Source: Chitinophaga barathri (GTDB lineage: Bacteria > Bacteroidota > Bacteroidia > Chitinophagales > Chitinophagaceae). From it: a DNA stretch of 64,000 bases. The stretch is taken from positions 372,001-436,000 of the forward strand of contig NZ_RMBX01000001.1 in NCBI RefSeq assembly GCF_003807585.1, in the 5' to 3' direction. Both the position numbers and the translations under genes were made by a program. The notes beneath the pieces are model-generated. The model searched no databases, had not been told where the DNA came from, and worked only from the letters and a program-made list of their open reading frames with translations. Within the stretch, counting starts at the first letter, position 1; every line of letters begins with the position of its first letter. Positions 43,478-64,000 of the stretch are shown piece by piece.

Positions 43478-43505
43478 CCAGGTGACGACAGCTGTTGTCA
43501 CCTGG
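43478..43505. terminator. Near-perfect palindrome at a convergent gene junction
   Basis: A 28-base inverted repeat from CCAGGTGAC to GTCACCTGG with only one non-Watson-Crick pair position per arm. It overlaps the last codons of the minus-strand gene ending at 43498 and lies 30 bases after the sugar porter stop. No U-run follows, so termination is plausible but not certain. Confidence 0.45.
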
Positions 43506-46365
43506 TTAGTCTTACGGTTTCTGATTTCACTTTTAAGCCAGTGTGGGTTACTCCCTCGATCCTGAATTCAAAATAGGGATCTGCCGGTGATACCGGAATT
43601 GTAAATTCATAGGGGTAATCACGGTCGTCTACCGTTTCCCAGTTATTTCCTTGCTTATAGTACAAACTTGCTTCTTTCAGCATTTTTTTGTCAGCCTGAA
43701 GCCAAATGTAGGCGCTGTTAAAGCTTTTACCCCAACTAAACAGCATTCCCGTTACTTCTCCAAAAGCTGATTTTGTAATTTTGAAGCTCTGATCAGATAA
43801 CGGCTTGTTCCGGCCATCATTAATTTTATCCTGAAACTGCGGAATTACTTTTAACCCCTCTATGGATATTGCTGTAATACCCCCGCCACTGATATCCAGC
43901 TCCAGGCTCCCGCCTTTTAAAGCAATAGCTTTGTCCGGCCGGTTATCTTTCCAGACATTGACTTTGTAGTCGACATGACAGTTATAAGACACCACCCCTG
44001 GGTTCAGCGCTATTTTCGTTCTGGATGCGCGGTTTGACTGATTGAGAAAAGCAATGTAAAGATTATTGTTACCGTAGCCAGAAACATAATTTATCTGGGG
44101 ATCAGCAATGTCAATCATTTTTTGAGGCATCCAAAGCTTTACATTTTCGTCGCCATAAAACTTTCCGGGGCGGTCTCCGTAGACCTTGCTTTGTAGGTAA
44201 GCGTATCCTTGCGCATTTTGAGACGGAAAATCAATCTTACCGGCAGATTTATAGATAGCATCCGTGACCAGGTAATCCATCAAAAGGGCTATATGCGGCC
44301 ATACATGGTTGTAAAAAACATCTGTATAGGTAATTTCCTGGAAACCCCTGAGCGGAAAATCCGGGCGGGAATATATACTTACGTATTCAGTATTCATCGT
44401 ATATCCGGGGTAGTTTGCATACCTGCCTACAACAGCGGATCGGGCAATATTCTTAAAAAAGGCATCCCCGGTGTAATGTGCAAGTCTTAGCATATACGCC
44501 GCATAGTGCGTGAGGAATACCGCCGGGTTAACATGAAAAGTATTGGTTGCTTCCGGCGTAAGCCCGATCTGCGACACCTGCCAGGCAGGAATAGCTTGTT
44601 CGGCAGCGATCATAGGCACTCTGGATATTTTATTCCTTTGATTCCCGCCAATGGTTGCCGTATCTCCCTTGTGAACTATAATATTTCCTACAGGTATTGC
44701 TGGTTGCAGCCAAACGTACTCTGAATAGGTTTTAGCGCCCTCTACTGCGGCATTTAAATACTTCAAATCCCTCGTTTCCTCGTAGATCTCCAGCAAATCC
44801 ATCCATTTTGGGGCAAAATCTGTCCAGAACTGCCCTCCACCGCCGCCAGCAATACGGGCATCTTTAAAATTATTCTGCGTGCTCAATACTCTTTGATCAA
44901 TGTATTCATTTGCCCCGCCGACCGCTTTGTCAAAATATTTTTTCTCTGACGTCATCCGGTACAAAGCCAGTGAGCTTTGCCAGCTGGCACTGTCACTCGC
45001 CATTCTGAGGTTAAGCGCTCTTCTTTTGCCAAACAAGGTCTCAGCATAATATTTAAACACCGTATTCCTGTTTCCTGAAAGGCTGTATAAGGTTGCCAAC
45101 TCCGAGACCTCGGCAGTCGGGCCTTTCAAACTATGAGAAGCATGCTGGCCTTTTGCATCCGGATCAAAGCCAAATAAGTACTTCTCCCTGGACATCAGGT
45201 ACTCAATCATAGGCAACGTACGCCTTGTGAAAATGTCCTGGTTATCAGTTATGAGGGCAATAGAGAAAGGATGAAGAGAGGAAACCAGTTTTACAGCACC
45301 TTTCACGTCATTGATATAGTTGAAGGCCTTATATTCAGGCATCCAGCCGCTGTAATAATCATTGAGCGCAAAATCAATAAAGTTTTCAATGGTTTTGTTT
45401 AAGGAAAGAGCCACATTTTCCCTGTAATCCTTGAATTTATATATATTCTCCGCAATGTAGCGGTAAGATGCATGGCAATCTCCTTTGAGCGTCAATAACC
45501 TGAAACTGAAAGAGAAAGCGGTATTCTTTTCCAGGTTTGAAGCCGGAAGGCCCAAAACCGGCGCAAATATCATCGGTTGAGCGTTCCCTTTGTCATTTCT
45601 TAAAAGTACACCAAACCTGGAATTTTTAAATGTTGGCAACCGGAAAGGCACTTCAGATGGATCGGCCACCAGGCTCGTGGTAACGCCGGCTGCTTTAACG
45701 GTTACCGCCGGCAACGGACATGCGTATTCCATGGATAAAAACGACCTGGAGGGAAAGCGTCTTTCCTGCCATATAAGTGGCTGCCATAGCTCTTCCACAC
45801 CCGCCTGCTGAACCTCCGGAACACCGGTATAACCTACAGAATAGGAGGCTGCTATTTTAGGAATAAATGTAAAGGTAACAAGCGGCTCACCATTTTGCTC
45901 CAGTGTGATTTCCGCAGATAAGGTAAAACGATCATTTTCCGGGAAAATCCATCCTATTTTTCGGTTTGAAAAGTTAACCTCCGAGGCAAAAATTGCCATC
46001 TTTTCCCCTGCGCTGAAAAAATCGTAGCTACTCTGGGAATCGCTGTCCGAAGTCTTCCAGGAAGGCAAAACATAGTTAAGTTCCTTATAGTTACCCTGAG
46101 AAATCTTTATTGGAGAATCACTATATATTACTGTAAAATGGGGATTAAACAACTGTTTTACCCGGTGCTTTTTTGAAAAAATTTCTAATGTACCGTTATT
46201 ATAAACCTTTAACTGGTAGAGGTTATTTTCTAAAGTTCCCTTTAGCTTATTGTCGACGACCTGCCGGGCGGTAGCGGGAGCAACTGAATCTGCAAGCCTA
46301 CGCTCATTTGCTGTGATGGAGTTTAAAACAGAAAATGCTGCCAGGATTAGAACAATATATTTCAC
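43498..46365 (-). CDS. Large secreted protein of unrecognised family, paralog A
   Basis: With the GTG at 46365 as start (KYIVLILAAFSVLNSITA is then a clean signal peptide) it has 955 residues; the longer frame from a TTG at 46434 would overlap the upstream gene. I do not recognise the family. Visible parts: an N-terminal beta-rich region (about 30-320), a middle helical region (about 330-650) with repeated blocks like DYYSGWMPEYKAFNYINDV and MIEYLMSREKYLFGFD that suggest an (alpha/alpha) toroid, a beta-rich region, and a C-terminal immunoglobulin-like domain. It is clearly paralogous to the gene at 61461-64000 (shared GVLLRN..GNAQPMIFAP, NKTIENFIDFALND, YRENV). Its place next to GH105 and PL8 suggests a glycan-active enzyme; this is inference. 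Confidence 0.7.
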   Translation of the reverse strand: MKYIVLILAAFSVLNSITANERRLADSVAPATARQVVDNKLKGTLENNLYQLKVYNNGTLEIFSKKHRVKQLFNPHFTVIYSDSPIKISQGNYKELNYVLPSWKTSDSDSQSSYDFFSAGEKMAIFASEVNFSNRKIGWIFPENDRFTLSAEITLEQNGEPLVTFTFIPKIAASYSVGYTGVPEVQQAGVEELWQPLIWQERRFPSRSFLSMEYACPLPAVTVKAAGVTTSLVADPSEVPFRLPTFKNSRFGVLLRNDKGNAQPMIFAPVLGLPASNLEKNTAFSFSFRLLTLKGDCHASYRYIAENIYKFKDYRENVALSLNKTIENFIDFALNDYYSGWMPEYKAFNYINDVKGAVKLVSSLHPFSIALITDNQDIFTRRTLPMIEYLMSREKYLFGFDPDAKGQHASHSLKGPTAEVSELATLYSLSGNRNTVFKYYAETLFGKRRALNLRMASDSASWQSSLALYRMTSEKKYFDKAVGGANEYIDQRVLSTQNNFKDARIAGGGGGQFWTDFAPKWMDLLEIYEETRDLKYLNAAVEGAKTYSEYVWLQPAIPVGNIIVHKGDTATIGGNQRNKISRVPMIAAEQAIPAWQVSQIGLTPEATNTFHVNPAVFLTHYAAYMLRLAHYTGDAFFKNIARSAVVGRYANYPGYTMNTEYVSIYSRPDFPLRGFQEITYTDVFYNHVWPHIALLMDYLVTDAIYKSAGKIDFPSQNAQGYAYLQSKVYGDRPGKFYGDENVKLWMPQKMIDIADPQINYVSGYGNNNLYIAFLNQSNRASRTKIALNPGVVSYNCHVDYKVNVWKDNRPDKAIALKGGSLELDISGGGITAISIEGLKVIPQFQDKINDGRNKPLSDQSFKITKSAFGEVTGMLFSWGKSFNSAYIWLQADKKMLKEASLYYKQGNNWETVDDRDYPYEFTIPVSPADPYFEFRIEGVTHTGLKVKSETVRLTR

Positions 46366-46396
46366 GTTTTTTGTTTGATTAAAAATGAATTTTATT

Positions 46397-48235
46397 CTAT
46401 TTTTTAAGCATTCTTTCCATTTCGATCCCTGCAAAGATCAGCGGAAATAATCCATGGGTATCATTATCCATCACCGGCCGGTTGTAATAAAATTTCAAAT
46501 CCATACTCACATTGGTTCCCACAACGGTACCATGCACTGTCCCGTCTTTCTCAATGGCAGTTTGTAAAGCCTTCCATCCCTTCATGGCGCTGGTTTTGTA
46601 TTTAGCCCCTTTAAGCCATTTGTTGTTCACCCCTCTTGCCAGGGCCATGGTAAAGATGGCAGTTCCGGAGGTTTCATCCTTCGATTCAGTTTTATCGAGA
46701 ACATTCCGCCAAAAGCCGGTTTCAGGATTCTGAAGCTTCACCAATGCATCAATATGTGATCTATAAATAAGCATTATCTTCTGATACAGCGGGTGATGCT
46801 TTGGCAGGCGCAGCAGCACCTCCGCTGCAGCCCATAAGCCCCATCCGTTAGCCCGGGACCAGTGTGGATAACGGTTCTCCGGCCTGGTACTGCTATAGGT
46901 GTGACGGTATAAATTAATTCCCGTATCAAAAAGATGTTTATTGAATGAAATAACCTGACTGGCAGCATCGTTGTAGAGCCTTTCCCTCTCGCTTTTATCC
47001 GAGGAAAGTTCAGCAGAAAAAAGCAAGAACGGAATGCCCATAAACATATCATCCACCCAAACAGAAAGTTCCACGGGCTCCTTACGGGCAAAAGTTCCAT
47101 CCTGAAGCCTTACCTGCCCTTTTTTTGCATAGGCTATTATCGGGCTGACAAATGAAGTATATTCCTCCCGCTCATCAAACTTTCCTTCGCGCACCAACCG
47201 CGAGATAAAAGGAAGTGCCGGCGCTGTGGTATAATCCAGCATTGGACGGTCTATCATCGTATTAAATGCAGACTTCACACCATGCAGTTTTTTTACCTGG
47301 TGTTCTATCAAGGGCCTGTTATCTATCATAAAATTCATCCATTGCCTGGAGAAGCGAGCATATTTCAGTTGTTTGGTCTCATCTGAAAGTGCCTGCATCG
47401 CCCACATAAAACCCCCAACATGATAATTCCAGTTATAAAATTCACCATTATTTATTACGTCAGCGAAGATCTCCATTTTCGGAACGGTCCAGGTGAGAAT
47501 TTCATCAGCACTTTTATAAAATTCACCGGGTTTAAATTGTGTTTCTATTTCCTGTACTATTGCGGGAAATCTGCCAAGGATCAGCCAGTTGCTGCCTTTT
47601 ATATCCGGGGCTAATTTTTCCAGGGAGAAATAGATATTTTTCGCTGATGCCGATGGCTCTTTCATACCGGCAGATTGCAGGTAAAATACCCAGTCTCCTT
47701 TTCCTTTCGTTTCAGCCTGGATAAAAATCTCATTTGTTCCTTTTTGCAGCCGCGAATTGAATTTATTTTTTAGCGTATACGTTTTTTCATTGTAAACGAC
47801 TTCGACTGTACCATCAGCTGCCTGGTCATAAGCCACTTCCCCATTTATCCATATCTTAACATGGTCATTATGACTGATCTCAAAAGTAACCTCCTGGGTA
47901 TCACCACTTATTATTGAGCTCGCTGCATAGGCAACCCCAGGTGCATTTTTCCCAAAATTGTTGCTAAAATCAACGATCTCGGTTTCTTTATATTTGGCAG
48001 GCATGGTATACCTGAACTCAAAGCGGGTTTCTTTGATCGCCTTCTCTGCGATAGTCCTGACAACCTCAATAGGACTGGAATTATTTGACTGATCTATCTG
48101 CCCATACGCCCTGACATTCCAGGAAAAAATACCAAGTATTACGAAAAAGCCAAGTACCAGGTTGAAATACAGCGGTCTACGGCAACTCGCCAGCTTATTG
48201 CTGGAGGTGCTGAGGTTTATACTAAAAATTTGCAT
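46397..48235 (-). CDS. GH105/GH88-type unsaturated uronyl hydrolase with N-terminal beta-domain
   Basis: A 612-residue secreted protein. Residues about 55-195 form an extra beta-sandwich with FEISHNDHVKIWINGEVAYD. Residues about 225-612 are an (alpha/alpha)6 barrel of the GH88/GH105 kind: MLDYTTAPALPF (Asp334), WVDDMFMGIPFLL (Asp395/Asp396), HWSRANGWGLWAAAEVLLRLP, and SGTAIFTMALARG. Known members hydrate and release the 4,5-unsaturated uronic acid left at the non-reducing end by polysaccharide lyases. The adjoining PL8-type lyase is the natural supplier of that substrate. Both genes lie on one strand with a 27-base gap. Confidence 0.87.
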   Translation of the reverse strand: MQIFSINLSTSSNKLASCRRPLYFNLVLGFFVILGIFSWNVRAYGQIDQSNNSSPIEVVRTIAEKAIKETRFEFRYTMPAKYKETEIVDFSNNFGKNAPGVAYAASSIISGDTQEVTFEISHNDHVKIWINGEVAYDQAADGTVEVVYNEKTYTLKNKFNSRLQKGTNEIFIQAETKGKGDWVFYLQSAGMKEPSASAKNIYFSLEKLAPDIKGSNWLILGRFPAIVQEIETQFKPGEFYKSADEILTWTVPKMEIFADVINNGEFYNWNYHVGGFMWAMQALSDETKQLKYARFSRQWMNFMIDNRPLIEHQVKKLHGVKSAFNTMIDRPMLDYTTAPALPFISRLVREGKFDEREEYTSFVSPIIAYAKKGQVRLQDGTFARKEPVELSVWVDDMFMGIPFLLFSAELSSDKSERERLYNDAASQVISFNKHLFDTGINLYRHTYSSTRPENRYPHWSRANGWGLWAAAEVLLRLPKHHPLYQKIMLIYRSHIDALVKLQNPETGFWRNVLDKTESKDETSGTAIFTMALARGVNNKWLKGAKYKTSAMKGWKALQTAIEKDGTVHGTVVGTNVSMDLKFYYNRPVMDNDTHGLFPLIFAGIEMERMLKK

Positions 48236-48262: not shown

Positions 48263-50611
48263 TTAATTTTCAATTGAAAAAACCGCACCAATTGATGCAC
48301 CGGCAGCGTCTTTAACATCCACAGCAATCTTCAGCGTTGGGCTCAGTTGTTGTACCCTGACCCTGGAATCCGCGGTGAGTATATTTTTTGCCGCCACATC
48401 AAACTCCAGCAATATTACATCCCTGTTGGAATGGGTGGGATCACAGACCGATATCTCAAGTTGTCCCGGAAGTCTTTTCAACATAAGTGCGGCTTTATGG
48501 TGACTGGTGACGATGCCTACTTTTTGGGCCGCATCTGCCCAAAAGTTTATCCCGGTAAGCCCTGTCTTTTTCTCTCTTACAGCCTGGGCAAATTTTGAAT
48601 TTTCAATAATTTCTATATCCGGATTCTTCGCATAGCGGCCCAGCTGCGCGGTGCTTTTTCCTGGCAACAGGACATAAGAATAACTATGATCTCCAGGTTC
48701 CGGATCATGACTGAACCAGAGTGTGAGGTATTCGCGCTTAACGGAATCCGGTCTTCCCGGTTTCAAATCGTTCCAGGAACCTGACCTCGACTCCCTTTTC
48801 GCATGTACGTTCTGCCGCTCCGGGAAAAAATATCCAATATCGGAATTCGGAACCGGCCCCTTCAGGTGCATCCATCCCGGATTTTTGAATATCTGTTTCC
48901 AATCCCCCGAATTAGATATCGAACGCCCATCAACATATAATGGTTGAATGCCTGATTTGGTTAATTTCCTGTTTTCTACAATTGTTTCTAAAGAATCACT
49001 TCCAGGGCCGCTGATGTCCGTGCCCAGCGCCACGATCTCGTCATCAAACATGAACCAGGATTTTTTAGCCCTGAGCATTAACGTGGTATCATCAATCTGC
49101 ATACCTGTGACTCCGTATAACCCGGACAACTTCGCTCCCCCAACCCAGTTTGCTCCAAGGGTATAGGAGCCTTCCCCCGGCTGCTTAAGTTTCCTGACTA
49201 CCGTAATTCCCGGAAGCCGGTATGCATCCACAGTAGGCCAAAAGTCTTCGCTGTACTGGGACAGGTCATTATTATACAGGTAAGTCATTCCATAGCCGGT
49301 ATACCAGGCCTTCAGATTTTCCTTGCTTTTTTTATGCAGTTCGTAGTTCCAGATGCGGTCAGAATACATGCTGATGCCCAAGGCATACCCCGGCCTGCGG
49401 TGCACTACCCTGTCCATATTCGCAAATTGCCAGTTCCCCAAAAGTTCGGGCTTTTCTTTGATCTGGTCATTCTCCATTAAATCCTTTGTGAGTTTTAATG
49501 AATACAGCGAAAGCCCATCATAAAAATTATGGTAAAAGTCACTTTTAATCCATTGCCTGATCATCCGCTTATAATTCAGGGCATCCGCCGGTGGAGCAAA
49601 CTGAGCCGCAAACAACAAACTTTCTATGGCTTCCGCCCCGGCAGCGTGGTCCTGCAATTGCTCGCGGGCAATTTCCCTTGCCCTGACCATATCCATCATA
49701 GCACCTTTGTAAATTACAGGCTCAAAAGAATAATATATCCAACGGTAAAAATTGGCCTGCCTGGGGTCTTTCACGTCCCAGGTGGAACCTTTTACCAGGT
49801 ATAAATAATAGCTGATGTTCTTCAGCAGGGACTTCCCATAACCGCCGGTATAAGCAAAACGGCCATGCTGCACAAAAGAGCCGTCGGTGTAAAAACCGTC
49901 ATTAGTCTTTACATACTCAAACACCGGGCTAAGCTGGTCCCGGGCATGAACCATCTCTGCGGTATCTTTGGCAATTACGCCGCGTAAGCCAATTACCTGG
50001 CAACGCCAAACCCGGTTAGCTCCCACATACTTATAGGCTTCAAAATACTGAACACCTTTGCCGTCAACATTGGGCGAATACCATCTGCTGGCTCGTATAA
50101 AATTATTAACCTGCTCCTTTGTAAGATGATCATACAATAAAACCAGGATATCGTTTATTATCAGGGGTGAACCAATTTCAAAATGCCACCAGTTAAAAAA
50201 AGGATAAATACGCTCGTTGTACCGGTTTTCATACATCCAGTTAAAAGCGCTGATGGCATCCTTTAACATAGCCTTGTTGCCATAAAACGCAGAACCCTGA
50301 ACGGAATAGGCCAGCGCCATATTCTTTATTTTCAAAAACTGGCGATCCAGGTTGGAACTTCTAAAAGGATCCGCATTTTCCTTCCATAAAAAACAGCGAT
50401 CCCCTGATTTATCCAACGCTGCCCAGTCGGCTTTGGCCTGAGCTGCAATTTTATCTATTAACGATTTCGCAACCGGATCTTTCAGGTCTACCTGCGTTCC
50501 GCCGATTAAATAGTTACACCATTTTAACCGTAAATCATCAAATTCATCAGCTTTTGCCGTACTAAAACAAAGGCAGATCATCAAAGAGGCCGCAAGGACT
50601 ATTTTTCCCAT
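48263..50611 (-). CDS. PL8-family polysaccharide lyase
   Basis: A 782-residue secreted lyase (signal peptide to about residue 21). The N-terminal (alpha/alpha) toroid carries FNWWHFEIGSP (139-149), Asn199 in VGANRVWR, His249 and Tyr258 in DGSFVQHGRFAYTGGYGK, and Arg312 in MVRAREIARE; the spacing Asn-50-His-9-Tyr-54-Arg equals that of chondroitin AC lyase as I know it. The C-terminal half is the usual beta-sandwich (WFSHDPEPGDHSYSYVLLPG). Members cleave hyaluronan, chondroitin or xanthan beside a uronic acid by beta-elimination. The presence of GH78 nearby argues against glycosaminoglycans and for a rhamnose-bearing polysaccharide, but that is inference. Confidence 0.9.
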   Translation of the reverse strand: MGKIVLAASLMICLCFSTAKADEFDDLRLKWCNYLIGGTQVDLKDPVAKSLIDKIAAQAKADWAALDKSGDRCFLWKENADPFRSSNLDRQFLKIKNMALAYSVQGSAFYGNKAMLKDAISAFNWMYENRYNERIYPFFNWWHFEIGSPLIINDILVLLYDHLTKEQVNNFIRASRWYSPNVDGKGVQYFEAYKYVGANRVWRCQVIGLRGVIAKDTAEMVHARDQLSPVFEYVKTNDGFYTDGSFVQHGRFAYTGGYGKSLLKNISYYLYLVKGSTWDVKDPRQANFYRWIYYSFEPVIYKGAMMDMVRAREIAREQLQDHAAGAEAIESLLFAAQFAPPADALNYKRMIRQWIKSDFYHNFYDGLSLYSLKLTKDLMENDQIKEKPELLGNWQFANMDRVVHRRPGYALGISMYSDRIWNYELHKKSKENLKAWYTGYGMTYLYNNDLSQYSEDFWPTVDAYRLPGITVVRKLKQPGEGSYTLGANWVGGAKLSGLYGVTGMQIDDTTLMLRAKKSWFMFDDEIVALGTDISGPGSDSLETIVENRKLTKSGIQPLYVDGRSISNSGDWKQIFKNPGWMHLKGPVPNSDIGYFFPERQNVHAKRESRSGSWNDLKPGRPDSVKREYLTLWFSHDPEPGDHSYSYVLLPGKSTAQLGRYAKNPDIEIIENSKFAQAVREKKTGLTGINFWADAAQKVGIVTSHHKAALMLKRLPGQLEISVCDPTHSNRDVILLEFDVAAKNILTADSRVRVQQLSPTLKIAVDVKDAAGASIGAVFSIEN

Positions 50612-50640: not shown

Positions 50641-51477
50641 TTATTTGGCGTACTTTTTATTTTGTTCGATACTGATATCTGTTTCTTTAGTAAGAAAATC
50701 ACCTTCACCAAGCCCTTTTTTCCCAACTTTCAGGATCATGTCATCTTCTACAAGGTCAATAGGAGTAATACATGAAATAGTTTTTTCCAAAAAAGGTTTA
50801 TTGGTCAGTAAGTTGTATGCGGATATAATGGACCACCGGGGATGATCGGATAAATTTGCGGCAGAGGAATGCAGCAGGTTACAATGAAAAAACAAGGCGT
50901 CTCCTGCTTCAAGCTCACAATGTATCAATTCATGTCGCTCCATGGCAAGTTCTACCCTTTTAAGATCAGCACCCACCTGCTCCCCGGACGTTCCATGTTC
51001 AATACGATCCATTTTGTGACTGCCTTTGAGCACCTGGAGGCAACCGTTTTCCGCGTTGGCTTTCGTCAATGCGATCATAACACTTATCAGTTGCGGGTAC
51101 AAAAAACCATTGCGGTACCAATAACCGTAATCCTGATGCCAGTCCCAGGCCCCGCCTACTTTTGGCTCCTTTTGCATAACCTTCGAATGGAAGTGACCTA
51201 CTTCACCACCCAGCAGTTGTCCGGCCGACTGGGCCATTCTTTTACTTCTGGACAGCATGCCAAAGCTATCGTCGCCCGGCGTGAACCACAAGGCCAGTTT
51301 GGATTTCATGCCATTTCCATCTACCATATCGTAAGAATTTTCCTTCAGTGACTTGTCTTCAATGGCAGTTTCATACAATATCACCGCCTCATCCTCAGAC
51401 AGGAATTTTTTTACAATAAGGTATCCGTCTGCGTGGTATTGTTCCACCTGCTCCTTTGTTAAATGATACTTTTCCAT
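50641..51477 (-). CDS. Phytanoyl-CoA dioxygenase-like Fe(II)/2-oxoglutarate enzyme
   Basis: A 278-residue protein without a signal peptide, so cytosolic. The iron site is seen as His114 and Asp116 in WDWHQDYGYW with distal His203 in LLHSSAANLSDHPRW, and Arg214 is placed to bind 2-oxoglutarate. The family hydroxylates or demethylates small molecules. It sits between a secreted lyase and a sugar-isomerase-like gene, which suggests it acts on an imported sugar or sugar derivative, perhaps removing an O-methyl group; that is a guess from context. The family call is solid, the substrate is unknown. Confidence 0.85.
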   Translation of the reverse strand: MEKYHLTKEQVEQYHADGYLIVKKFLSEDEAVILYETAIEDKSLKENSYDMVDGNGMKSKLALWFTPGDDSFGMLSRSKRMAQSAGQLLGGEVGHFHSKVMQKEPKVGGAWDWHQDYGYWYRNGFLYPQLISVMIALTKANAENGCLQVLKGSHKMDRIEHGTSGEQVGADLKRVELAMERHELIHCELEAGDALFFHCNLLHSSAANLSDHPRWSIISAYNLLTNKPFLEKTISCITPIDLVEDDMILKVGKKGLGEGDFLTKETDISIEQNKKYAK

Positions 51478-51503
51478 AGTAGTATTTTATTTATTAATAA
51501 TAT

Positions 51504-52322
51504 TTATCTATATCTCTCCTTTAGCAAATTCATCATGAATACGTTGATATCCCATTGATTTACCAGTGGTTGCCTGCTGAATGGCAATAAGGTCAGATAA
51601 GGGGGAGCGCCAAATTCCGGTGTAATAGTAAACTGCGCTCTTCCATTTTTACGGTGCTTTTCGATTACCCTGTCCCACCATTTAAGATGAATATCTACCT
51701 CCTTTCTCCATTCGGGGGCGCGGGGATCGGTGATCTGCGGCCCCTGCGTGAACCCGATCCTGGCATGCAGGTGTTCCGTATTTTGTATTGCCAGATCAAT
51801 GGCTTCCTGCTGATCCTGCAGAAAACTTTCCGCTACAGCACACCAATGAGAAATATCCAGGGTAAGTTTTATGTGTGGATATTTCTTCAGGTACTTCTTT
51901 GTGATGTGCGCAGCAAAACTCCATTTGCCGCGATGCGTTTCGTGAAATATCGCTATACCCGCTTCTTTACTTACCTGTTCAGCTATATTAATCAGCTGTA
52001 TATTCTCTGATTCAGTGAAAAAATCCTTGCCCGTCTGCGTATTGATAAATAATGGATTGAACCCGGCCAGGTGACGTAAATGTTTTTTAAACAGTCCCTG
52101 ATGCAGATCGAAATTGCTTTCCGTGGTCTGCCAATGCTGGGCAATAAAAAAAAGTTCATGTTTGTTCAATAAGCGCGATACTTCTTCTTTTTCAGCGTTA
52201 GACATGTCCGGCTCCAAACTCATTTCGACCCCATGATAACCAGCGGCCTTTACCTGGCTGAAAAAGGTATCATAGGAAAGGTGTTCAGACCCCCATCGCG
52301 GGCAAAAAAACTTTAAAACCAT
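51504..52322 (-). CDS. Sugar-phosphate isomerase/epimerase-like TIM barrel
   Basis: A 272-residue cytosolic protein of the AP endonuclease 2-like (xylose isomerase-like) superfamily. Metal-ligand candidates are the Glu in HETHRGKW, Asp in LTLDISHW, His in HARIGFTQG and Glu in TPEFGAPPY. The frame extends to 52370, but ATG at 52322 (MVLKFFCPRWG) is preferred because it avoids a 38-base overlap and begins at the first barrel strand. Members isomerise or epimerise sugars, or dehydrate inositol derivatives. It is 26 bases upstream of the dioxygenase gene and just after the FAD oxidoreductase. Confidence 0.85.
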   Translation of the reverse strand: MVLKFFCPRWGSEHLSYDTFFSQVKAAGYHGVEMSLEPDMSNAEKEEVSRLLNKHELFFIAQHWQTTESNFDLHQGLFKKHLRHLAGFNPLFINTQTGKDFFTESENIQLINIAEQVSKEAGIAIFHETHRGKWSFAAHITKKYLKKYPHIKLTLDISHWCAVAESFLQDQQEAIDLAIQNTEHLHARIGFTQGPQITDPRAPEWRKEVDIHLKWWDRVIEKHRKNGRAQFTITPEFGAPPYLTLLPFSRQPLVNQWDINVFMMNLLKERYR

Positions 52323-52332
52323 AATCCAATAA

Positions 52333-54680: not shown

Positions 54681-57419
54681 TTATATTCCCGAAATCACAA
54701 AATCATATTTTCCTGATCCAATGTCCCATACGGTGTGTCTTTCACGGGTTTCTACAAGCCGGATTATTTCTTTTCCTTTAGTAGCTTTACCACTCGACCA
54801 GATAGCAGCAACTCCTTCACTTATGGAAGACGCTTTAGAGGAAGGAATATAAATCCGGGCGGTTGTATTGGAGGGAATAGTTACCTCAATGGTCAGTCTG
54901 TTTCCGGAAATCCTGGTCCAGGTACACATTACCGGTCCACTCATCGTTTCTATTGAGCAGGACGCATAATTCAGGCCCTCTATTATGCCCGGCATGATCT
55001 TTATTTTCCGGTATCCCGGTTCCAATGCAGAAATTCCTCCCAACGCCTTTATCATCCATACACCCAGGTATGAGCCTAGCCAACCGTGATTCCTGGATGT
55101 ATTCCTAATATTCCACTGCTCCCAACTGGTGCTGGCCCCGTTTTCCACCCAAAATCCCCAGCTCGGAAACGTTTTCCGGGAAGCGATTTTGTAAGCAAGT
55201 TCAGTTTTATCAAACATCCACAAAACATTCATCAGATTATACGTGGTTGCTCCTCCGGTAGTGACATGGAAGTCCCTGTCAATGATGCTTTTTTCCAGTG
55301 CATTTAATACCACGGAACGCTTTTCACCAGGCACCAGACCGAAATGAAGCGCCACCGCATTTGCTCCTTGCGAGTTATTGTCATAAGTATCATCATGGAA
55401 AAAATTAGCATTAATTCCACCTTTGATCTTTGCTGATAACGACAAATACATTTTTCTTTCCTGCTCTCTATCAAGTACCCCAGTGATCTTTTCCATCACC
55501 TTCACCATCTGATAAAAATAGGCCGTACTTAAAAACGCAGGATCAGGTTTATCCAAACCAATGTGATCGCCCCATTTATTGCTTCTAATGATGTATTCAG
55601 CATCTGCTAAGGATTTGTAATAGCCAATCAGCCGTTCCAAAGTGGGATAAATCTCCTCCAGCGCCTGTTTGTCCCCGTAGGCCAGGTAAATGTCATAGGC
55701 ACCTAAAATCACTTCCGATACCCAAACCGGATCGGTACCATTCCAGCCATAATGAATTTTCCCAGGGACTTTATCTGCAATACGGCCGTTTGAATCTTGC
55801 GCCGCCATCATGTCATCTTTCCATTTCAGGAAAAACTTCCCCATATCGAAACTCTGACTTAACGGTTCCTGGCTCCATTGGCCCAGCCACGGTACTTTTT
55901 CGCGGCTTGGGCAATCAGTATAGACACTATGTGTATTAGTTCTCAAACTTCAGATGTTATTGTTATATAACCGGTTCAGCAACGAATCAGAACAGCTAAA
56001 GCTTCCAGTCTTTCGCAAGTCCGTATGCACGACGCAACCTTTAATTGTACTTATATCCGGAACACCGGGATAACCGATCAGTGTTACCCACTGAAATCCA
56101 TGATAGGTAAAACGCGGCTGAAACGTTTCCATTCCTTCGCCTTTCAGCATATAGGTGTCTTCCTGATTAAAATCCATTAACCGGTCCTTACTGTCAGAAT
56201 ATTGAACTTTGATTATTTTCCCCCTGGGGCCTTTTACCTTAATACTTGCCCAGCCCGAAAAATTCTGGCCCATATTGTACCGGTAGATGCTGTCAGATAT
56301 TTTAATCAGCTGAACAGGTTCAATTGTCTCCACAATTCGTATGGGCTCAAGTTGCGCATTGATATTAAGGTCCAGCTGCTTTACCTTCACACCGTTCCAA
56401 TTCCGTTCATTGAATCCCGGTTTATCCCATCCGGGTAGTTCTTTAGTGGCATCATATAACTCTTTGGAAATACCCCAGTTGATGACCGATTTAAATGGTG
56501 CATCAAGTGTTCCTTTCCAGCTTTCATTACTTAAAAGCAGGTATTTTTCCCCATCCGTATATTCAACTTCCAACTCCAACCTGAAGCCATCTTTGCAGTT
56601 CATTAACCGCCCGTTGGAAAGCATGACGCCAATAGCATTCGAGCCCTCACGAAGCAGGCCCTTAACATCGTATGTTACAGACAGCACCCGTTGGCTGCAA
56701 TCCGTAAAACCCGGGTCAAGCACATGATCTCCAACCTTTCTTCCATTTATCCGCAATTCGTAATAACCCAGGTTCGCAACAAATACTCGCGCTCTTTTTA
56801 TTTCCTTGTCGGCGACCTGGAATTCCTTTCGCAATAATTTACCTTCCACTAAATTCAGCCAGGTATTTCCACTCCAGTTCTTTTTATCATACAACGGATG
56901 TACAGATGAATCCTTGTAATTAACAGTGGCGGGGTCAAAAAACGGCCTAATTAAGTGATCTTCGATGTAAATCCATTTTGCTTTCCAATCCTTTGCTGTC
57001 AGCAATCCGGTTTCAAAAGTCGCCATGCTGCTATAAGGACTCACATTCCCATCTTTATCTTTTAAGCGGACTTTCCAATAATAAGTGCTTTTACCTTCTA
57101 TTGGCTTACCCTTATATTGCACTCCAAATGACTGGCCGGAAGGCACCCAGCCCGTACTCCATATATCTCCGCGGTCACTGTTTAATTTTTCTATACTCGA
57201 TGAAACCAGTATTTCATAAGCAGTCTGTCTTTCAGCCCTATCATCGTCACGCATCAGCCAACTAAAGACTGGATTTTGATTCGTGATCCCCAAGGGTTCT
57301 TCAGCATAGTCTGTTCGCAAAAAATAAGGTGCTGCGGGGCCCGCCGCCAAAAGCGACAGACCCGTACACAGTAGCTGTACCAGCAGAAAAATCTTTAAAA
57401 CAACAGGATTAAAAGACAT
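54681..57419 (-). pseudogene. GH78 alpha-L-rhamnosidase interrupted by an in-frame TGA
   Basis: Two open frames, 57419-55950 and 55946-54681, lie in the same reading frame and are split by a single TGA at 55952-55950. Read through, the product is about 912 codons: signal peptide, Bac_rhamnosid N-terminal and concanavalin-like domains (about 30-480), the (alpha/alpha)6 catalytic domain with the PTDCPxRxE-like motif as YTDCPSREKVPWLGQ, and the C-terminal domain. The break lies just before that motif, at NNNI-stop-SLRTNTHSVYTDCP; GH78 proteins usually have Trp there, so TGG to TGA is the likely change. The downstream part can only restart at a TTG and would lack a signal peptide. Either a real nonsense mutation or a base-call error. 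Confidence 0.88.
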
Positions 57420-57422
57420 AAA

Positions 57423-59135
57423 TTATCGTAGTTCTGGTTTTGGCGCAGCCAATTGCGGTTTAATTTTTCTTGAAGCATAAAAAGGAATAATAGCAAGCAA
57501 CAAAACTCCACCTGCAATGCAGATCACCATGATAGTCCCTGAACTTGTAAATACGCTTAGTATAAATAACAAAAGTGCCGTAAACGCCAGTGCAAATGCG
57601 ATCACCTGCAATCCAAACTTATTTTGTTTCTGAATTTCAAATGCTTCTTCGACATTTGCCTCAACAAAGTCCCTTCTGCGATTGGCTTTTATCGTTTCAT
57701 AATCCAGGTATCGCTGGCTAACTATATCTCTGCTATAGGCCCATAATTCATATATCAAAAGCATTGCAAAGGGAAGACCTACGCCTAGCGCCATTTCTTC
57801 TCCACGGGTAAGTTTCAGGATATCCAGGAGCGGCAGGATGATCTTAAATACCAGGTTCACACACAAACTGATACCCGCTATATATAAGGTAGCTGTTCCG
57901 CTAAGTCTTTTGGAAAACAATGCCCAGATCGGTGGAGCCAACAATGGCCCGCCAGTTATGGCTCCCACGCTAAGCACCACTTCAACCATACCGCCGATAA
58001 ATGGTACCAGCAATGCAATAATGATCATACCCAGGCCAAATAACCAGGAGGAATTACGGGCAACCGTCATTAGTTTACGGTCAGTGGCAAGGGGATTGAT
58101 TCTTCCCTTATAAATATCGTTGGTGAAAATGGCGGAGACCACATTAAGCGTGGTGTTGGCGGAAGCAGAGGTTGAAAAATACATGCCCGTCAACATCAGC
58201 CCCATTAAGCCAGGAGGCAATACCAGCTTACACATCTGGAGATAAGCGCTTTCCGTTTCCAGGCCCGTAAGCCCGGGATTGATGGTCTTGTAGATCATCG
58301 GCGGGAGCATCCAAAGCACGGGGCTGATAAGATACAGCCCTGCAAACAGGAAGGCCACCTTACTGGCGGACTTCTGACTGTCCACACTGGTGTACCGCTG
58401 CACAAATGTCCAGTTGCCGCCGATGTAGAAGATGTGATACACCGCAAACGCCAAAATGAAGCCAAGGGTATATTCCCCATTGAGGATATCAAAGAAACCA
58501 TCAGGAGCCTTTGCCTGAAAATTTGCCATTCCACCGGCTGCGTCAAACGCAAGCGGAACAATGATCAACACAGCGGCGGAAAGAATAACAAACTGCAAAA
58601 TATCTGTGACCATTACCGCCCAAAGCCCTCCTACCGCTGTATACGCGATCATGAACACACCCAGCACGATCGTACAGGGTACCAATGGATAACCAAGTGA
58701 AGAACTCACCAGCACTGCGACCGGGTAAAGTACCGAACCCTTAATGAATAAGGAAACCAGCATGAAAACATATATGAAGCTCTTCTGCACATTTTCACCT
58801 AAACGTTCTTTGATAAACTCGGCCGCGGTAAGCGCACCGGTAGCCCGCCATTTAGGCGCCAGGTAAAAACCGGTGACCAGGCCCCCAATACACATGGTCC
58901 ACTGGATAGTAACCGCCACCCAGCCATATTTATAAGCAATCGATCCCCAGGCCACGAATGTACCGGCAGAAAAGAAACTCATAAACAGTGACAGCCCGCC
59001 AATAAACCATGGAACAGCCTCACCGCCTGCAAAAAAAGATTTCATATTCCGCCCAGTACGCGCGAATAGCAACCCGATGCACATCACAAAGGCGGAAAAA
59101 ACAAAAATCACTGTAGTATCGATGGTTGAATTCAT
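57423..59135 (-). CDS. Sodium:solute symporter (SSS family)
   Basis: A 570-residue inner-membrane carrier with about 13-14 spans. Family features include FFAGGEAVPWFIGGLSLFMSFFSAGTFVAWGSIAYKYGW, GVFMIAYTAVGGLWAVMVTDILQF and NWTFVQRYTSVDSQKSASK. A long cytosolic segment (about 460-510) is near the C-terminus. It is tightly coupled to its neighbours: 3 bases before the GH78 gene and a 4-base overlap with the upstream GH43-like gene. It is the only inner-membrane importer in this cluster and probably takes up the released sugar, rhamnose or an uronate derivative; that is inference. Confidence 0.92.
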   Translation of the reverse strand: MNSTIDTTVIFVFSAFVMCIGLLFARTGRNMKSFFAGGEAVPWFIGGLSLFMSFFSAGTFVAWGSIAYKYGWVAVTIQWTMCIGGLVTGFYLAPKWRATGALTAAEFIKERLGENVQKSFIYVFMLVSLFIKGSVLYPVAVLVSSSLGYPLVPCTIVLGVFMIAYTAVGGLWAVMVTDILQFVILSAAVLIIVPLAFDAAGGMANFQAKAPDGFFDILNGEYTLGFILAFAVYHIFYIGGNWTFVQRYTSVDSQKSASKVAFLFAGLYLISPVLWMLPPMIYKTINPGLTGLETESAYLQMCKLVLPPGLMGLMLTGMYFSTSASANTTLNVVSAIFTNDIYKGRINPLATDRKLMTVARNSSWLFGLGMIIIALLVPFIGGMVEVVLSVGAITGGPLLAPPIWALFSKRLSGTATLYIAGISLCVNLVFKIILPLLDILKLTRGEEMALGVGLPFAMLLIYELWAYSRDIVSQRYLDYETIKANRRRDFVEANVEEAFEIQKQNKFGLQVIAFALAFTALLLFILSVFTSSGTIMVICIAGGVLLLAIIPFYASRKIKPQLAAPKPELR

Positions 59136-60238
59136 TTGTTCTGATTAACATTTTTTAGTGGAATCGCCACGTTGCAGGTAACACTATCACTCCTTTTTAT
59201 GGCCACAAACAGTACCGCGGGCCGCCCTTTATCCAACCAAAGTTGCGGGCGTTCCAGCCGCCGGACCTTTTCCCTGGCTCCGCCCTCCCATTCCAGGGTC
59301 AATCCGGATACCAGCGGGTGGGAAGTGAGGCGCCAACTGAAACCATCTTCCGATGTAAAAAGCGCAAGGGAGGTTCCGGCTTTGGTAAAATCCCCTTTCA
59401 TGTCTTTTACGATGGCAAAGTAGCGCCCGTCCTGCCTCCATATAAACGGATCTTCAGCGGCGAACCGGGATCCCGGATAGTCAAATATTGTCCCGGGGCG
59501 TTTCAAAAAAGGGCCTGTTGGAGAATCGGAAATCGCTGCTCCATGGCTCACCTTTCCGCCACGAGGCATTTCCCCCGCCGAAACGCCTTTATAAACGATC
59601 AGATATTTCCCATCGGCCCTTTGGGTTACTGAAGGATTACTGGTCATCAGGTGATCCCAGGAATCCGCCGTGGTATCAACAACAGGTTTGTCAAATCTTT
59701 TCCAGGGACCATCCAGGCTTTTCGCAACCGCAACACCAATGCGCTGGTGGTTCCGGTGGTCCCAGAAGGTACCATCTCCATAGTTCCCCATGTAATAGAG
59801 ATAATATTTATTCCCAAATTTTAAAACCGTCGGGTTGTGGGTTACATCGGCATCCCAGTATTTTTTATGCCTTTTTGCCAGCACTACATTTTTAAATGTA
59901 TACGGACCCAGCGGCTGTTCTGCCGTCGCATGAGCGATTTCGCTATCGGTAGCCCAGCCGTTGAACCCTTTGGATTTCGGCCACCTGCTGTAGAAAAGGT
60001 GGCAAACCCCATCCGCGGTCCTGATCATACTGCCGCACCATACATAATAACCGTTTTCCTGGAACATAGATTTTTGCTGAACAGGGAGCAGTAATGTTGA
60101 AAAATCCGGTTCCCGGACCGCCTGGCTCTGAGCGGTTGAATACGTTGCCAGTAGAAAAAGACATACCGGCAGGCACCAACCTGGAAAAAAGGACCGCCTC
60201 ACCTGCTTAACCCTCCTACAACAAACTGGTCGCCACAT
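59132..60238 (-). CDS. GH43/GH117-like five-bladed propeller protein, secreted
   Basis: A 368-residue protein with signal peptide (PVCLFLLATYSTAQSQA). The rest has the repeat pattern of a five-bladed glycosidase propeller: GYYVWCGSMIRTADGVCHLFYSRWP, DADVTHNPTVLKFGNKYYLYYMGN, SNPSVTQRADGKYLIVYKG, AAEDPFIWRQDGRYFAIVKD, and LERPQLWLDKGRPAVLFVA. The Asp in DADVTHNP, Asp in AEDPFIW and Glu in LERPQL are catalytic candidates by analogy with GH43 and GH117. I cannot assign the family firmly. The start is uncertain: the ATG at 60238 overlaps the upstream gene by 40 bases, and a GTG at 60202 is possible. Confidence 0.72.
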   Translation of the reverse strand: MWRPVCCRRVKQVRRSFFPGWCLPVCLFLLATYSTAQSQAVREPDFSTLLLPVQQKSMFQENGYYVWCGSMIRTADGVCHLFYSRWPKSKGFNGWATDSEIAHATAEQPLGPYTFKNVVLAKRHKKYWDADVTHNPTVLKFGNKYYLYYMGNYGDGTFWDHRNHQRIGVAVAKSLDGPWKRFDKPVVDTTADSWDHLMTSNPSVTQRADGKYLIVYKGVSAGEMPRGGKVSHGAAISDSPTGPFLKRPGTIFDYPGSRFAAEDPFIWRQDGRYFAIVKDMKGDFTKAGTSLALFTSEDGFSWRLTSHPLVSGLTLEWEGGAREKVRRLERPQLWLDKGRPAVLFVAIKRSDSVTCNVAIPLKNVNQNK

Positions 60239-61434
60239 GAAACAACCTGTCCGTCCTTAAAATCGACTTCGACCGCAAACCGGCTGTGAGTGTACTTTCC
60301 ATTAGCACCCTTCAGATATCCGGTGATCTTTTTTTCCATTACATCGATGATTTCTCCCGTTTCTATATACAGGTATCTGCCATCAAGGCTTCCCATGATC
60401 CATCCGGGCTGCCCGTAGATTGCCTTAGGGCCATATAAAAAATTACCCTGCTTATCTTTTTCATTTCCCTGGTTCGTTTTTATAAACTGCTTCCAGGCAG
60501 GTGCCTTTAATGGCAGCCCGCTAACATCAAATACGTGTAAACCATAACTCTTCTGATCGACTACCCAAACTTCCTTCTCCTGGTTAGCCATGGCAATTCC
60601 GTGGCAAAATGTTGCATTCCTGACATCCGCCGGCAAGGCGTACGGCTCGGGCACATTCGCCGTAAACAATATTTTACCAGTGGCGACGTCTCCCACATTA
60701 AACCCTATTAATTTATTGACATTGATGAATGCCAAAGTGGCTTTCCCGTTAATGGTAAAAGGCCTTACCGTACCAAAACACGGCCCGATCCTGCGGATGG
60801 TCTTCGCCGTTCTGGCATCCACTACATGAAGCCAGTTGTGATCCATTTTGGTTCCAAAAGCTGACATGAAAACTTTTGTATTGTCGGGGCTGCAGATGGT
60901 ATTGTGCGTCCGGGGTGCAACATGAACACGCGAGTCGACTTTTTCCTGGCCGGTTTTGGCGTCAATTACGTAAAAGTAGTCGGTGGGCGTATCTTCTCCC
61001 GAGGGCATAAAAATCGTAGCCCCGTCGGGAGTGATCGTGCCGCGGTCCACGGCGGACGCATATTTTTTATGCCAAAGTACCTTATTGCTCAAAAGATCCA
61101 TGCAAAGTATGTACCCGGTTTCACCACCTTTCATTGTACCATAATGGGAAATGTACAGTCTATGTGTTTTTGCGTTGGCGAATATTCCCCGGATGTTCAT
61201 TACAGACGCAGGAAGCGGGATAACCTTAACTAATTTGTGGTTATTATTAATGTCATGAACTTCCAGGGAAGGTTTAAGCTCCCGGAAACCATCCCTGTCT
61301 TTAGGAGAACGGCCAACGTACAAATATTTTTGCATGTCCTCTTTTTGCGCAAGAGCTTCGTTCACCGGTATAAAAAACGCCAACGCTACGACAAACTTTT
61401 TCAGGACATTTGAGCAATCGTGCAGATAATTCAT
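60199..61434 (-). CDS. Secreted YncE-like beta-propeller protein
   Basis: A 411-residue protein with signal peptide (KKFVVALAFFIPVNEALA). The remainder has repeats of the YVTN/YncE kind: HRLYISHYGTMKGGETGYILCMDLLSNKVLWHKKY, GATIFMPSGEDTPTDYFYVIDAKTGQEKVDSR, KVFMSAFGTKMDHNWLHVVDARTAKTI, and KEVWVVDQKSYGLHVFDVSG. I see no catalytic motif I can name. Seven-bladed propellers also occur in several polysaccharide lyase families, so an enzymatic role is possible. It lies between paralog B and the GH43-like gene on the same strand. Confidence 0.72.
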   Translation of the reverse strand: MNYLHDCSNVLKKFVVALAFFIPVNEALAQKEDMQKYLYVGRSPKDRDGFRELKPSLEVHDINNNHKLVKVIPLPASVMNIRGIFANAKTHRLYISHYGTMKGGETGYILCMDLLSNKVLWHKKYASAVDRGTITPDGATIFMPSGEDTPTDYFYVIDAKTGQEKVDSRVHVAPRTHNTICSPDNTKVFMSAFGTKMDHNWLHVVDARTAKTIRRIGPCFGTVRPFTINGKATLAFINVNKLIGFNVGDVATGKILFTANVPEPYALPADVRNATFCHGIAMANQEKEVWVVDQKSYGLHVFDVSGLPLKAPAWKQFIKTNQGNEKDKQGNFLYGPKAIYGQPGWIMGSLDGRYLYIETGEIIDVMEKKITGYLKGANGKYTHSRFAVEVDFKDGQVVSCGDQFVVGGLSR

Positions 61435-61460
61435 TATTGCTTAATATTTTTTATTTACTA

Positions 61461-64000
61461 CTATTTCAAAATCGTTCTTTTCGCTTTCATCACCTCTCCC
61501 TTAGAATTGGCCGCTTCCACCCAGAATTCCAATTCCCGTTCATTTTGATGCAGCGGAATGGTGAATTCAAAGGGATAGCTGCTGTCTACCGCCTTCAACC
61601 ATTTTTCAGAACCAGCTACGCGATAATGCATTGTTGCGCTGCTTACCTGCTCACCGGATGCATTCAGCCAGGTATGTGCGGTATTGATTGTACCGAGTGA
61701 GTAAATAGCGGCGCTTATCATTCCAAATGGTGACTCCGTTTTGTTATAACTCAATTCTGATAATTCCTGAACCGTTTTGCTGTAAGCCTTTTGCTGAAAC
61801 TGCGTGGCAACGTGAATGTCATCTATCGCGAAGGCTGTTATTCCTTTCGCCGCAACACTGAACCTTAACGTGCCGTCATGTACTTTCACAGTAGGTGAGG
61901 CGGCATTTTCTTCCCAAACGCGGGCATTATTCTCATGCTTAAACGGGATCAGGTCCGGGTTTAAATGAACTTTGGCACTTACTGCCTGGTCGCTCTGGTT
62001 GAGGAATGCAACGTAGAATTTTCCATTACCATAACCGGTCACATAATTCAACTGTTCGTTATCAATTGTTAAAACCTGTTTGGGCATCCATAAATAAACC
62101 TTCTGATCGCCATAAAAGCTCCCGGGCTTGTCTCCATATACCTTGCTCTTCAAATAAGCATAGCCAGGAGAAAACTGTCCGGGAAAACTAACGTTCCCTT
62201 TTGACAGTACAAATGCATCAGAAACCAGGTAGTCGAAAAGCAGTGCAATTTGCGGCCATACATGGTTGTAGTATACCTGGTTATAGGAGATCTGGTTATA
62301 TGCACGCAGGGGATAATCGGCGCGGGCGTACACTGTGTTAAAAATTCCGTCGATGTCATACCCGGGATAATTGGAATACCTGCCTACCACGGCGGAACGG
62401 CCAACTGAACGAAAAAATTCATCTTTGGAATAATAGGCCAGCCTTAATAAATGTGCGGCATAATGTGTCAGGAAAATAGCAGGATTGGATCCGTACGTAT
62501 TGCTCGCCTCCGGGGTAAGCCCTATTTGCGATACACGCCAGGCCGGCACCAATTGTTCCGGCGCCGCCATTTTCGCCATTCCGTCACGCTCGGCTTCGTG
62601 GCTCAGGTTTTCAACGATCCCACCTTTATTGATTGTAATGTCCTTGTTAGGAATTAAAGGATAGAACCAGATATACTGCATATAAAGTTTAGCTCCTTTA
62701 ATAGACGCTTCCAGGTATTTTGGTTCTTTAGTTTCTTCATACAGATCCAGCAGTTCTATCCACCAGGGAGCAAAATCTGTCCAGAACTGTGCAGCCTGTT
62801 CCACCCCGCTGAAATCCTCGGCTTTTTTATCGACCCTGGTCTTTATATATTCATCGGCTCTTTTTTTTGCTTTTTCCAGTACAGCTTTATCGCCGTTCAT
62901 GCGATACAATGCCAGTAAGTTTGGCCAGGTGTCTCCCCTGCTGGTAGTATTCAGGTTCAGGCTGCGGCTCACCCGGCTCAGGCTGTCCGCATAGTACCTG
63001 AACACCGGGCTTCCCTGCTGGTAGAATGACTGCAGCGCAGCAAGTTCTGCGACTTCCATGGAAGGACCGGCCATTTTGCTGGAAGCGTTCTGCCTGGTGA
63101 CGTCTTTGTTCAGCGCAAAAAGGTACTTTTCCCGTGACATTAAAAACTCAATAATGGGAAGGCCCCTGTTCCGATAAATGCTTTCATTGTCAGTAATAAG
63201 AGCCACCGAAAGAGGATGAAGTCCTGAAACGACTTTCACCGTCTGCGCCACGTCGGTAGAATAATCGAACCCCCGGAGATCTGCATTCCAGCCACTGTAA
63301 ACATCATTCATCGCAAAATCGATCGTATTTTCGATGGTTTGATTAAGGTTGTTGTACACGTTTTCCCGGTAATCCTTAAAGCCAAACATCTTTTGCGCAA
63401 CATAACGGAAAGAATTCGGCTGGTTTCCTTTAAACATTAATACTCTGAACTTAAATGAAAACGGCTTGCCTCCTTCCAGTTTCGAAGCTTTTGTTCCAAA
63501 CAGTGGCGCAAAGATCATGGGCTGAGCTTTACCTGACTGGTTCCGTACGAGCACGCCAAATTTGAGATTGCCCTGTCCGGCTGAAGGAAGTTCGTAAGGA
63601 ATATCACCAGGTTCTGCCACAACACCAACGGTTAAACCATCTTTTTCAACCATGGTGGCGGGCAGGCTGCACATATTTTCAGGAGAAAGAAAAGACAGCT
63701 GAGGAAAGCGCTTTTCCTGCCAGACGTGAGGTTGCCAGATGGCATCGGCATCTTTTGCAGCCGTTTCGGGCATCCCGGCATAACCAATGGTATACCAGGC
63801 AGATTCAGCAGGGGTAAATGTATATTCAATTGCCGGCTCATTCGTCCCTTCCTTAAAAGACATGGATGCCTCGAGTTTATACTCAGGGTTGTACGGGAAA
63901 GTCCATTTTACCCGGTCTGCTTCAATTTCCGCAGCAACTGCTTTCACTATTACCGGTTTGGCTGCTTTAAAAAAATCAGCTGTTCTTTCCTCGCTTCCCG
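61461..64000 (-). CDS. Large secreted protein of unrecognised family, paralog B, 5' end beyond window
   Basis: The frame is open from its stop at 61461 to the window end; the codons from 63948 to 63998 read GSEERTADFFKAAKPVIV, which aligns with SDSQSSYDFFSAGEKMAIF of paralog A, so the start lies outside. It matches paralog A over its whole visible length, with blocks such as WQEKRFPQLSFLSPE, GVLVRNQSGKAQPMIFAPLFG, YRENVYNNLNQTIENTIDFAMNDVYSGW, and SREKYLFALNKD, and the same C-terminal immunoglobulin-like end. Domain order is the same: beta-rich, helical, beta-rich. Two copies in one cluster suggest two related steps on the same glycan. No family name is claimed. Confidence 0.75.
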   Translation of the reverse strand, partial: GSEERTADFFKAAKPVIVKAVAAEIEADRVKWTFPYNPEYKLEASMSFKEGTNEPAIEYTFTPAESAWYTIGYAGMPETAAKDADAIWQPHVWQEKRFPQLSFLSPENMCSLPATMVEKDGLTVGVVAEPGDIPYELPSAGQGNLKFGVLVRNQSGKAQPMIFAPLFGTKASKLEGGKPFSFKFRVLMFKGNQPNSFRYVAQKMFGFKDYRENVYNNLNQTIENTIDFAMNDVYSGWNADLRGFDYSTDVAQTVKVVSGLHPLSVALITDNESIYRNRGLPIIEFLMSREKYLFALNKDVTRQNASSKMAGPSMEVAELAALQSFYQQGSPVFRYYADSLSRVSRSLNLNTTSRGDTWPNLLALYRMNGDKAVLEKAKKRADEYIKTRVDKKAEDFSGVEQAAQFWTDFAPWWIELLDLYEETKEPKYLEASIKGAKLYMQYIWFYPLIPNKDITINKGGIVENLSHEAERDGMAKMAAPEQLVPAWRVSQIGLTPEASNTYGSNPAIFLTHYAAHLLRLAYYSKDEFFRSVGRSAVVGRYSNYPGYDIDGIFNTVYARADYPLRAYNQISYNQVYYNHVWPQIALLFDYLVSDAFVLSKGNVSFPGQFSPGYAYLKSKVYGDKPGSFYGDQKVYLWMPKQVLTIDNEQLNYVTGYGNGKFYVAFLNQSDQAVSAKVHLNPDLIPFKHENNARVWEENAASPTVKVHDGTLRFSVAAKGITAFAIDDIHVATQFQQKAYSKTVQELSELSYNKTESPFGMISAAIYSLGTINTAHTWLNASGEQVSSATMHYRVAGSEKWLKAVDSSYPFEFTIPLHQNERELEFWVEAANSKGEVMKAKRTILK

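Follow-up and report, generated by a model that had tools for sequence, protein, structure and literature searches.

Two paralogous large proteins with a predicted toroid fold bracket a glycan operon of Chitinophaga barathri and belong to a broad family linked to an FAD oxidoreductase gene

The window analyzed here is a stretch of 64,000 nucleotides from the Chitinophaga barathri genome, which comprises 6.86 Mb in 28 contigs. A same-strand glycan cluster opened and closed by two related large proteins had been proposed at its end, and this arrangement held: both proteins are encoded by large minus-strand ORFs, with B first, A last, and all genes called between them on the minus strand (Table 1). 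From B to A, the order is B, a 411-aa protein, a weak GH43-like protein, an SSS symporter, GH78 (in two pieces), an FAD oxidoreductase, a TIM barrel protein, a PhyH oxygenase, PL8, GH88/GH105 and A. Since these genes share one strand and are separated by gaps of at most 71 bp or overlap by at most 40 bp (38 bp between A and the GH105 gene), the run looks like a single operon with B and A as its first and last genes. Pfam confirmed the PL8, GH105, GH78 and weak GH43 genes named as companions, but an in-frame stop divides the GH78 gene into two pieces in one frame (55950-57419 and 54681-55946) that carry the N-terminal and catalytic domains, and this stop is a mutation or a sequence error. The PhyH oxygenase, the TIM barrel protein and the FAD oxidoreductase (50641-54609) may represent oxidative metabolism inside the glycan operon.

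A and the windowed part of B are identical at 383 of 844 residues (45%, E 0), and full-length B (942 aa; L002:462-3290, partly beyond the window) shares 44% identity with A over 895 residues, so the pair is homologous by direct computation. B begins with a hydrophobic leader and A carries a hydrophobic stretch behind its uncertain start, both as judged by eye; A and B are apparently exported proteins.

Past the window end, a divergent LacI gene (named by eye) starts 189 bp upstream of B and is followed, in order, by a heparinase II/III-type lyase, a second PF12831 FAD oxidoreductase and a 380-aa protein without a Pfam family. Farther on, a protein whose C-terminal match to GH79 is sub-threshold precedes SusD- and SusC-like genes (named by eye). 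A separate nearby glycan cluster (window 25469-37169) holds melibiase-like, GH2, GH30 and TonB-receptor genes.

Table 1. Features of the A-to-B gene run and of protein A (window coordinates).
Feature	Coordinates	Strand	Basis and remarks
Paralog A, 978 aa	43498..46434	-	ORF and 45% identity to B; TTG start (uncertain); last gene of the apparent operon
A, C-terminal beta-sandwich region (residues 736-978)	43501..44229	-	Model
A, (alpha/alpha) toroid (residues ~320-735)	44230..45477	-	Model; 35 of the 54 columns invariant in alignment A3 fall here
A, residues 617-720 with Glu628, Arg650, Arg671, Tyr678, Asn709, His710, Asp720	44275..44586	-	Conservation; candidate active site
A, N-terminal beta-sandwich (residues ~60-319)	45478..46257	-	Secondary structure of the model; limits set by us
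GH88/GH105-type unsaturated uronyl hydrolase (PF07470)	46397..48235	-	Pfam, 209 bits
PL8-type polysaccharide lyase	48263..50611	-	Three PL8 domains; Pfam E 5.1e-82
PhyH-type oxygenase	50641..51477	-	Pfam E 8.1e-38
Xylose-isomerase-like TIM barrel protein	51504..52370	-	24.3 bits, below the Pfam cut-off of 31.1
FAD-dependent oxidoreductase (PF12831)	52333..54609	-	Pfam E 1e-93; relatives are the family's usual partner
GH78 alpha-L-rhamnosidase gene, split by in-frame stop	54681..57419	-	ORFs and Pfam
Sodium/solute symporter (SSS)	57423..59135	-	NCBIfam TIGR00813, 163 bits, below the cut-off of 184
Weak GH43-like protein	59132..60238	-	Pfam, 45.1 bits against a cut-off of 32.2
411-aa protein	60199..61434	-	No Pfam family; a beta-propeller is a guess made from the sequence
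Paralog B	61461..64000 (continues past window end)	-	845 aa within the window; first gene of the apparent operon

The original prediction could place neither protein in a family, and the searches agree for Pfam and NCBIfam, where neither had a match above a curated cut-off. Against Pfam, A gave a single match far under the cut-off (E 0.11) and B none; neither matched NCBIfam at E up to 1, and phmmer with A returned one chance-level match in the PDB (E 1.7). Ten proteins (full B, three paralogs from the same genome and six others) gave nothing above the Pfam cut-offs save one borderline C-terminal match to PF08533 in the 847-aa paralog (21.3 bits against 21), and this paralog also showed a weak C5-epimerase match (E 0.0018, below cut-off). 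Among 17 members spanning the subclasses (alignment A2), one had a chance-level NCBIfam match. No relative of A was found in plasmid records, and in the literature on toroid lyases, PL27, PL33, PL43-46, BT0263, PF12831 and glycan-locus FAD enzymes nothing recognizable as describing the family was found. The claim of an unrecognized family thus stands, on sequence searches, against the libraries used, Pfam and NCBIfam.

Membership in individual families was also assessed. The GH88/GH105 model PF07470 was absent in A and B and scored 19.1 and 23.1 bits against a cut-off of 26.6 in two 850-class members; the GH127 model PF07944 peaked at 24.4 bits in the 847-aa paralog, short of its cut-off of 24.9, and gave nothing in A or B. 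Single-sequence comparison by hhalign with the window PL8 yielded a probability of 0.1%, and common ancestry with PL8 and GH105 was set aside, as comparisons with single sequences gave no sign of it. DUF5695 (PF18951), whose members are likewise about 900 aa long, lack a known function and occur in the same bacterial family (3 of 60 genomes), was rejected as the family: there was no Pfam hit, and hhalign detected no relation between A3 and one DUF5695 sequence (0.6%). It was also rejected as a possible PL27 relative, one DUF5695 protein showing no PL27 match in the PDB. Profiles of 58 members (alignment A3, which includes the windowed B) and of the 17 A2 members found no PL27 chain among PDB sequences at E up to 10, the presence of such chains in the searched file resting on the database description. 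Because the profiles miss PL27, A and B are, judged by sequence, not members of that family. The strongest profile hits, weak in themselves, were GH76 mannanases (E 0.0056 and 0.0092, respectively), followed by still weaker hits to GH88/GH105 enzymes; heparinase II/III-type lyases were absent from these PDB matches.

The notion of two paralogs captured a real pair but undercounted, since the genome encodes five members. Three more, of 847, 1108 and 941 aa, lie about 70 kb away (C11:337884-348085) and carry export leaders as judged by eye. They belong to a second glycan cluster, which likewise encodes a PL8, a LacI, SusC/D and an SSS symporter, as well as a GDSL esterase and an FAD oxidoreductase. 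In this sister cluster (C11:325886-350368; L036, L037), the PL8 protein has a CBM96 and a Por secretion tail.

The breadth of the family was demonstrated computationally. Counting the present genome, 15 of the 147 from Chitinophagaceae have members (E up to 0.001). The 941-aa paralog was matched at E <=1e-30 in 2 of 395 genomes of the phylum, this one and another of the same bacterial family, among the matches listed and with no more than two candidates scored in each genome. A pattern-limited scan of genome contigs returned 167 matching stretches encoding relatives, from which 78 loci were kept. They represent seven phylum-level groups (Acidobacteriota, Bacteroidota, Verrucomicrobiota, Planctomycetota, Kiritimatiellota, Hydrogenedentes and Pseudomonadota). 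Many of these loci are lone contigs from metagenome-assembled genomes, and the phyla with one locus hinge on correct binning. Identity to A is 20-21% in the 847-aa subclass and 20-25% across the other subclasses overall, and profile comparison established that two subclasses are homologous (hhalign 100%, E 3.5e-52). A quick tree places A next to an Acidobacteriota protein (support 97), and B next to a tandem pair of a Sphingobacteriaceae genome (support 100). Because these partners differ, the pair does not have the look of a recent local duplication.

The AlphaFold2 model of A, built from 58 sequences, reached a pLDDT of 90.8 and a pTM of 0.90, making its fold a confident prediction. The predicted protein runs from an N-terminal beta-sandwich through an (alpha/alpha) toroid to C-terminal beta-sandwiches. 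The toroid anticipated for both proteins is thus predicted in A, to which B is 45% identical. A Foldseek search of the PDB with this model ranked first 5no8, the PL27 L-rhamnose-alpha-1,4-D-glucuronate lyase BACCELL_00875 (E 1.4e-7, TM 0.30/0.41). A model of a homolog from the 847-aa subclass (L116; 13 sequences, pLDDT 84.0, pTM 0.88) again placed PL27 first (5no8, E 8.4e-12; 5nok, E 2.5e-11; TM 0.29-0.34). PL27 is therefore the best PDB match by E-value for two subclass models, at weak TM-scores (0.29-0.41) and rmsd values of 12-15 A. According to PMC8377490, PL27 consists of an N-terminal beta-sandwich followed by an (alpha/alpha)6 barrel. The A model shows the same order of beta-sandwich and helical toroid and differs from PL27 in its additional C-terminal beta-sandwiches. 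For the second subclass, the unsaturated glucuronyl hydrolase 3wiw had a target-normalized TM of 0.58, above that of PL27, at a weaker E-value (1.6e-5). In a viral structure library, the top match was a GH95-domain protein of Pyramimonas orientalis virus (E 2e-7, TM 0.13).

Conservation points to a candidate active site on the toroid. In A3, Glu628, Arg671, Tyr678, Asn709, His710 and Asp720 are present in 58 of 58 sequences, Arg650 in 57 and Arg405 in 50. In A2, Glu628, Arg650, His710, Asp720 and Arg405 occur in all 17 sequences, Arg671 in 16, Tyr678 in 13 and Asn709 in 9 (His in 8). Tyr678 and Arg405 vary in some alignments; a separate 30-sequence alignment has them in 30 and 28 sequences, respectively. 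Given 13 of 17 in A2 and 30 of 30 there, the presence of Tyr678 in the 850-class depends on the alignment. Conserved acidic residues common to both proteins had been expected. A conserved polar set is indeed shared, but it reads Glu/Arg/Arg/Tyr/His/Asp and contains no plain acidic pair: Glu628 and Asp720 are the only acidic residues among those common to the subclasses, and Asp720 lies mid-helix. The 32 conserved polar residues of the toroid (15 in helices, 14 in loops, 3 in strands) resemble the toroid at large, and therefore their distribution gives no sign of a rim pocket. For comparison, the toroid lyase PL33 uses a catalytic Tyr and His, with Asn, according to PMC11848413.

PL8, GH105 and GH78 are not the usual partners of the family; the FAD oxidoreductase is. 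Genome comparison demonstrated this linkage: an FAD relative (E <=1e-100) occurs in all 15 family-bearing Chitinophagaceae genomes vs 4 of the 132 without the family (Fisher p 3e-17, kinship ignored and two draws of 147 genomes taken as identical). The nearest FAD-to-member distances in the 15 genomes are 58-4466 bp; the 58 bp of this genome belong to the second cluster, not to the window, where about 5.9 kb separate the FAD gene from A and about 6.9 kb separate it from B. An FAD relative with at least 45% identity was present in 26 of the 47 loci that have more than 4 kb on both sides, and in 34 of 78 overall. None was seen in the three Pseudomonadota loci, in the Hydrogenedentes and Kiritimatiellota loci, or in two of four Acidobacteriota loci, including that of A's nearest relative (L043). 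In a Sphingobacteriaceae locus (L045), SSS, FAD and PhyH homologs stand together with tandem relatives of B.

Because the FAD gene also occurs without the toroid family, in four genomes (in one on a 5.2 kb contig), the FAD enzyme probably serves a shared downstream step. The idea that it prepares the bond for A or B to cleave was dropped as a main reading: the window enzyme has no signal peptide or export leader by eye, and relatives are also found in toroid-free loci. Compared with solved structures, it has no close relative, and only its nucleotide-binding stretch matches, to flavocytochromes. In three toroid-free loci (L125, L126, L127), the FAD oxidoreductase lies near LacI-like genes. Proteins near it there resemble GH95 and GH29 in their motifs, as judged by eye; the two proteins tried from FAD loci without the toroid family had no NCBIfam hit.

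Of the 78 loci, 2 gave a homolog of the window GH105, 2 a homolog of either PL8 protein of the genome and none a homolog of the window GH78 (blastp, E <=1e-8), in a set where many loci are short and with single-sequence searches that miss distant relatives. By blastp, a Saccharicrinis locus (L107) is the only one of the 78 in which a member is joined by homologs of both GH105 and PL8. The proteins neighboring the family include GH97, GH2, GH43, GH106, GH95, GH31 and sulfatases, with GH88 absent, among the best 25 of 49 families in each of two sets (n=42 and n=59), and GH3 was also found among neighbors; GH106 rhamnosidases account for 1 of 42 and 5 of 59 proteins scanned. Three MFS transporters, one from a toroid-free FAD locus, score best with a D-galactonate transporter model, below cut-off. 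The case for the rhamnose- and uronate-bearing polymer of the original prediction is weak in view of the scarcity of GH105, PL8 and GH78, with some support from the GH106 neighbors and the heparinase II/III-type lyase. Its account of pairing, in which A and B may act on neighboring linkages, and of substrate is only partly supported. For the window operon in particular, an acidic polymer is the likely target, because PL8 and GH105 lie in the cluster and the heparinase-type lyase just beyond it.

We propose that A and B represent an unrecognized carbohydrate-active family whose members are most likely uronate-adjacent beta-elimination lyases, a reading to which we assign, for the whole family, a probability of roughly 45%; a hydrolase is a possibility of somewhat lower rank, and modification, binding or another role takes the rest. 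Beta-elimination is favored by the PL27-like domain order together with the conserved Arg, Tyr and His. The candidate Tyr-His pair also resembles that of the heparinase II/III-type toroid lyases (PL33 and kin), in which, per PMC11848413, the domain order is reversed, with the toroid preceding a beta-sheet domain. A lyase family is expected to travel with unsaturated uronyl hydrolases, and the scarcity of GH105 homologs outside the window cluster argues against beta-elimination and sets the family apart from PL27. This scarcity, and the many hydrolase neighbors (GH97, GH2, GH95, GH106), would fit an alternative in which the members are (alpha/alpha)-barrel glycoside hydrolases (or phosphorylases) with an inverting mechanism that use Glu628 as their general acid and target neutral or deoxy-sugar links. 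Enzymes of the GH94/GH65/GH116/GH15 type share the overall architecture of a beta-sandwich plus an (alpha/alpha) barrel: both fold searches list cellobiose phosphorylase and a GH65 glucosidase after PL27, to which the search with A adds glucodextranase and GH81, and that with the second subclass GH116 and a 1,2-alpha-L-fucosidase. Sub-threshold matches to GH127, GH88 and GH76 helices point the same way. However, PL27 outranks these enzymes by E-value in both searches, the sequence profiles miss the GH94/GH65/GH116/GH15-type enzymes, and Glu628 and the mid-helix Asp720 form no obvious acid pair.

Two further roles seem improbable. C5-epimerases or other modifiers of polysaccharide uronates, rather than depolymerases, would agree with the fold and residues that toroid lyases share with a human epimerase (PMC11848413) and with the weak epimerase match of the 847-aa paralog, but the setting of SusC/D, LacI and hydrolases looks catabolic, and we regard such a function as quite unlikely. 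Equally hard to credit are non-catalytic glycan-binding or scaffold proteins built on a degenerate toroid: a characterized relative was not found and the modeled C-terminal beta-sandwiches could bind glycans, yet Glu628, Arg650, His710 and Asp720 are kept throughout A2 despite the low identity of the other subclasses to A, and conservation is concentrated in the toroid.

Under the preferred lyase reading, A and B would act in the periplasm or at the cell surface and, like PL27, would cleave by beta-elimination at a link adjoining a uronic acid, with toroid residues Glu, Arg, Tyr and His as the putative active site. Within an acidic heteropolysaccharide, they may attack side chains or caps. The symporter would import the products, and the co-encoded FAD enzyme may handle the released sugar inside the cell.

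Taken together, we tentatively suggest a new polysaccharide lyase (or hydrolase) family with a PL27-like fold, spread over seven phylum-level groups, in which the released sugar would feed an undescribed flavin-dependent step encoded next door. A sizeable family without a name in the Pfam and NCBIfam libraries used now has a predicted fold, residues to mutate and a tie to one uncharacterized flavoenzyme. Finding one activity would annotate glycan clusters across many bacteria.
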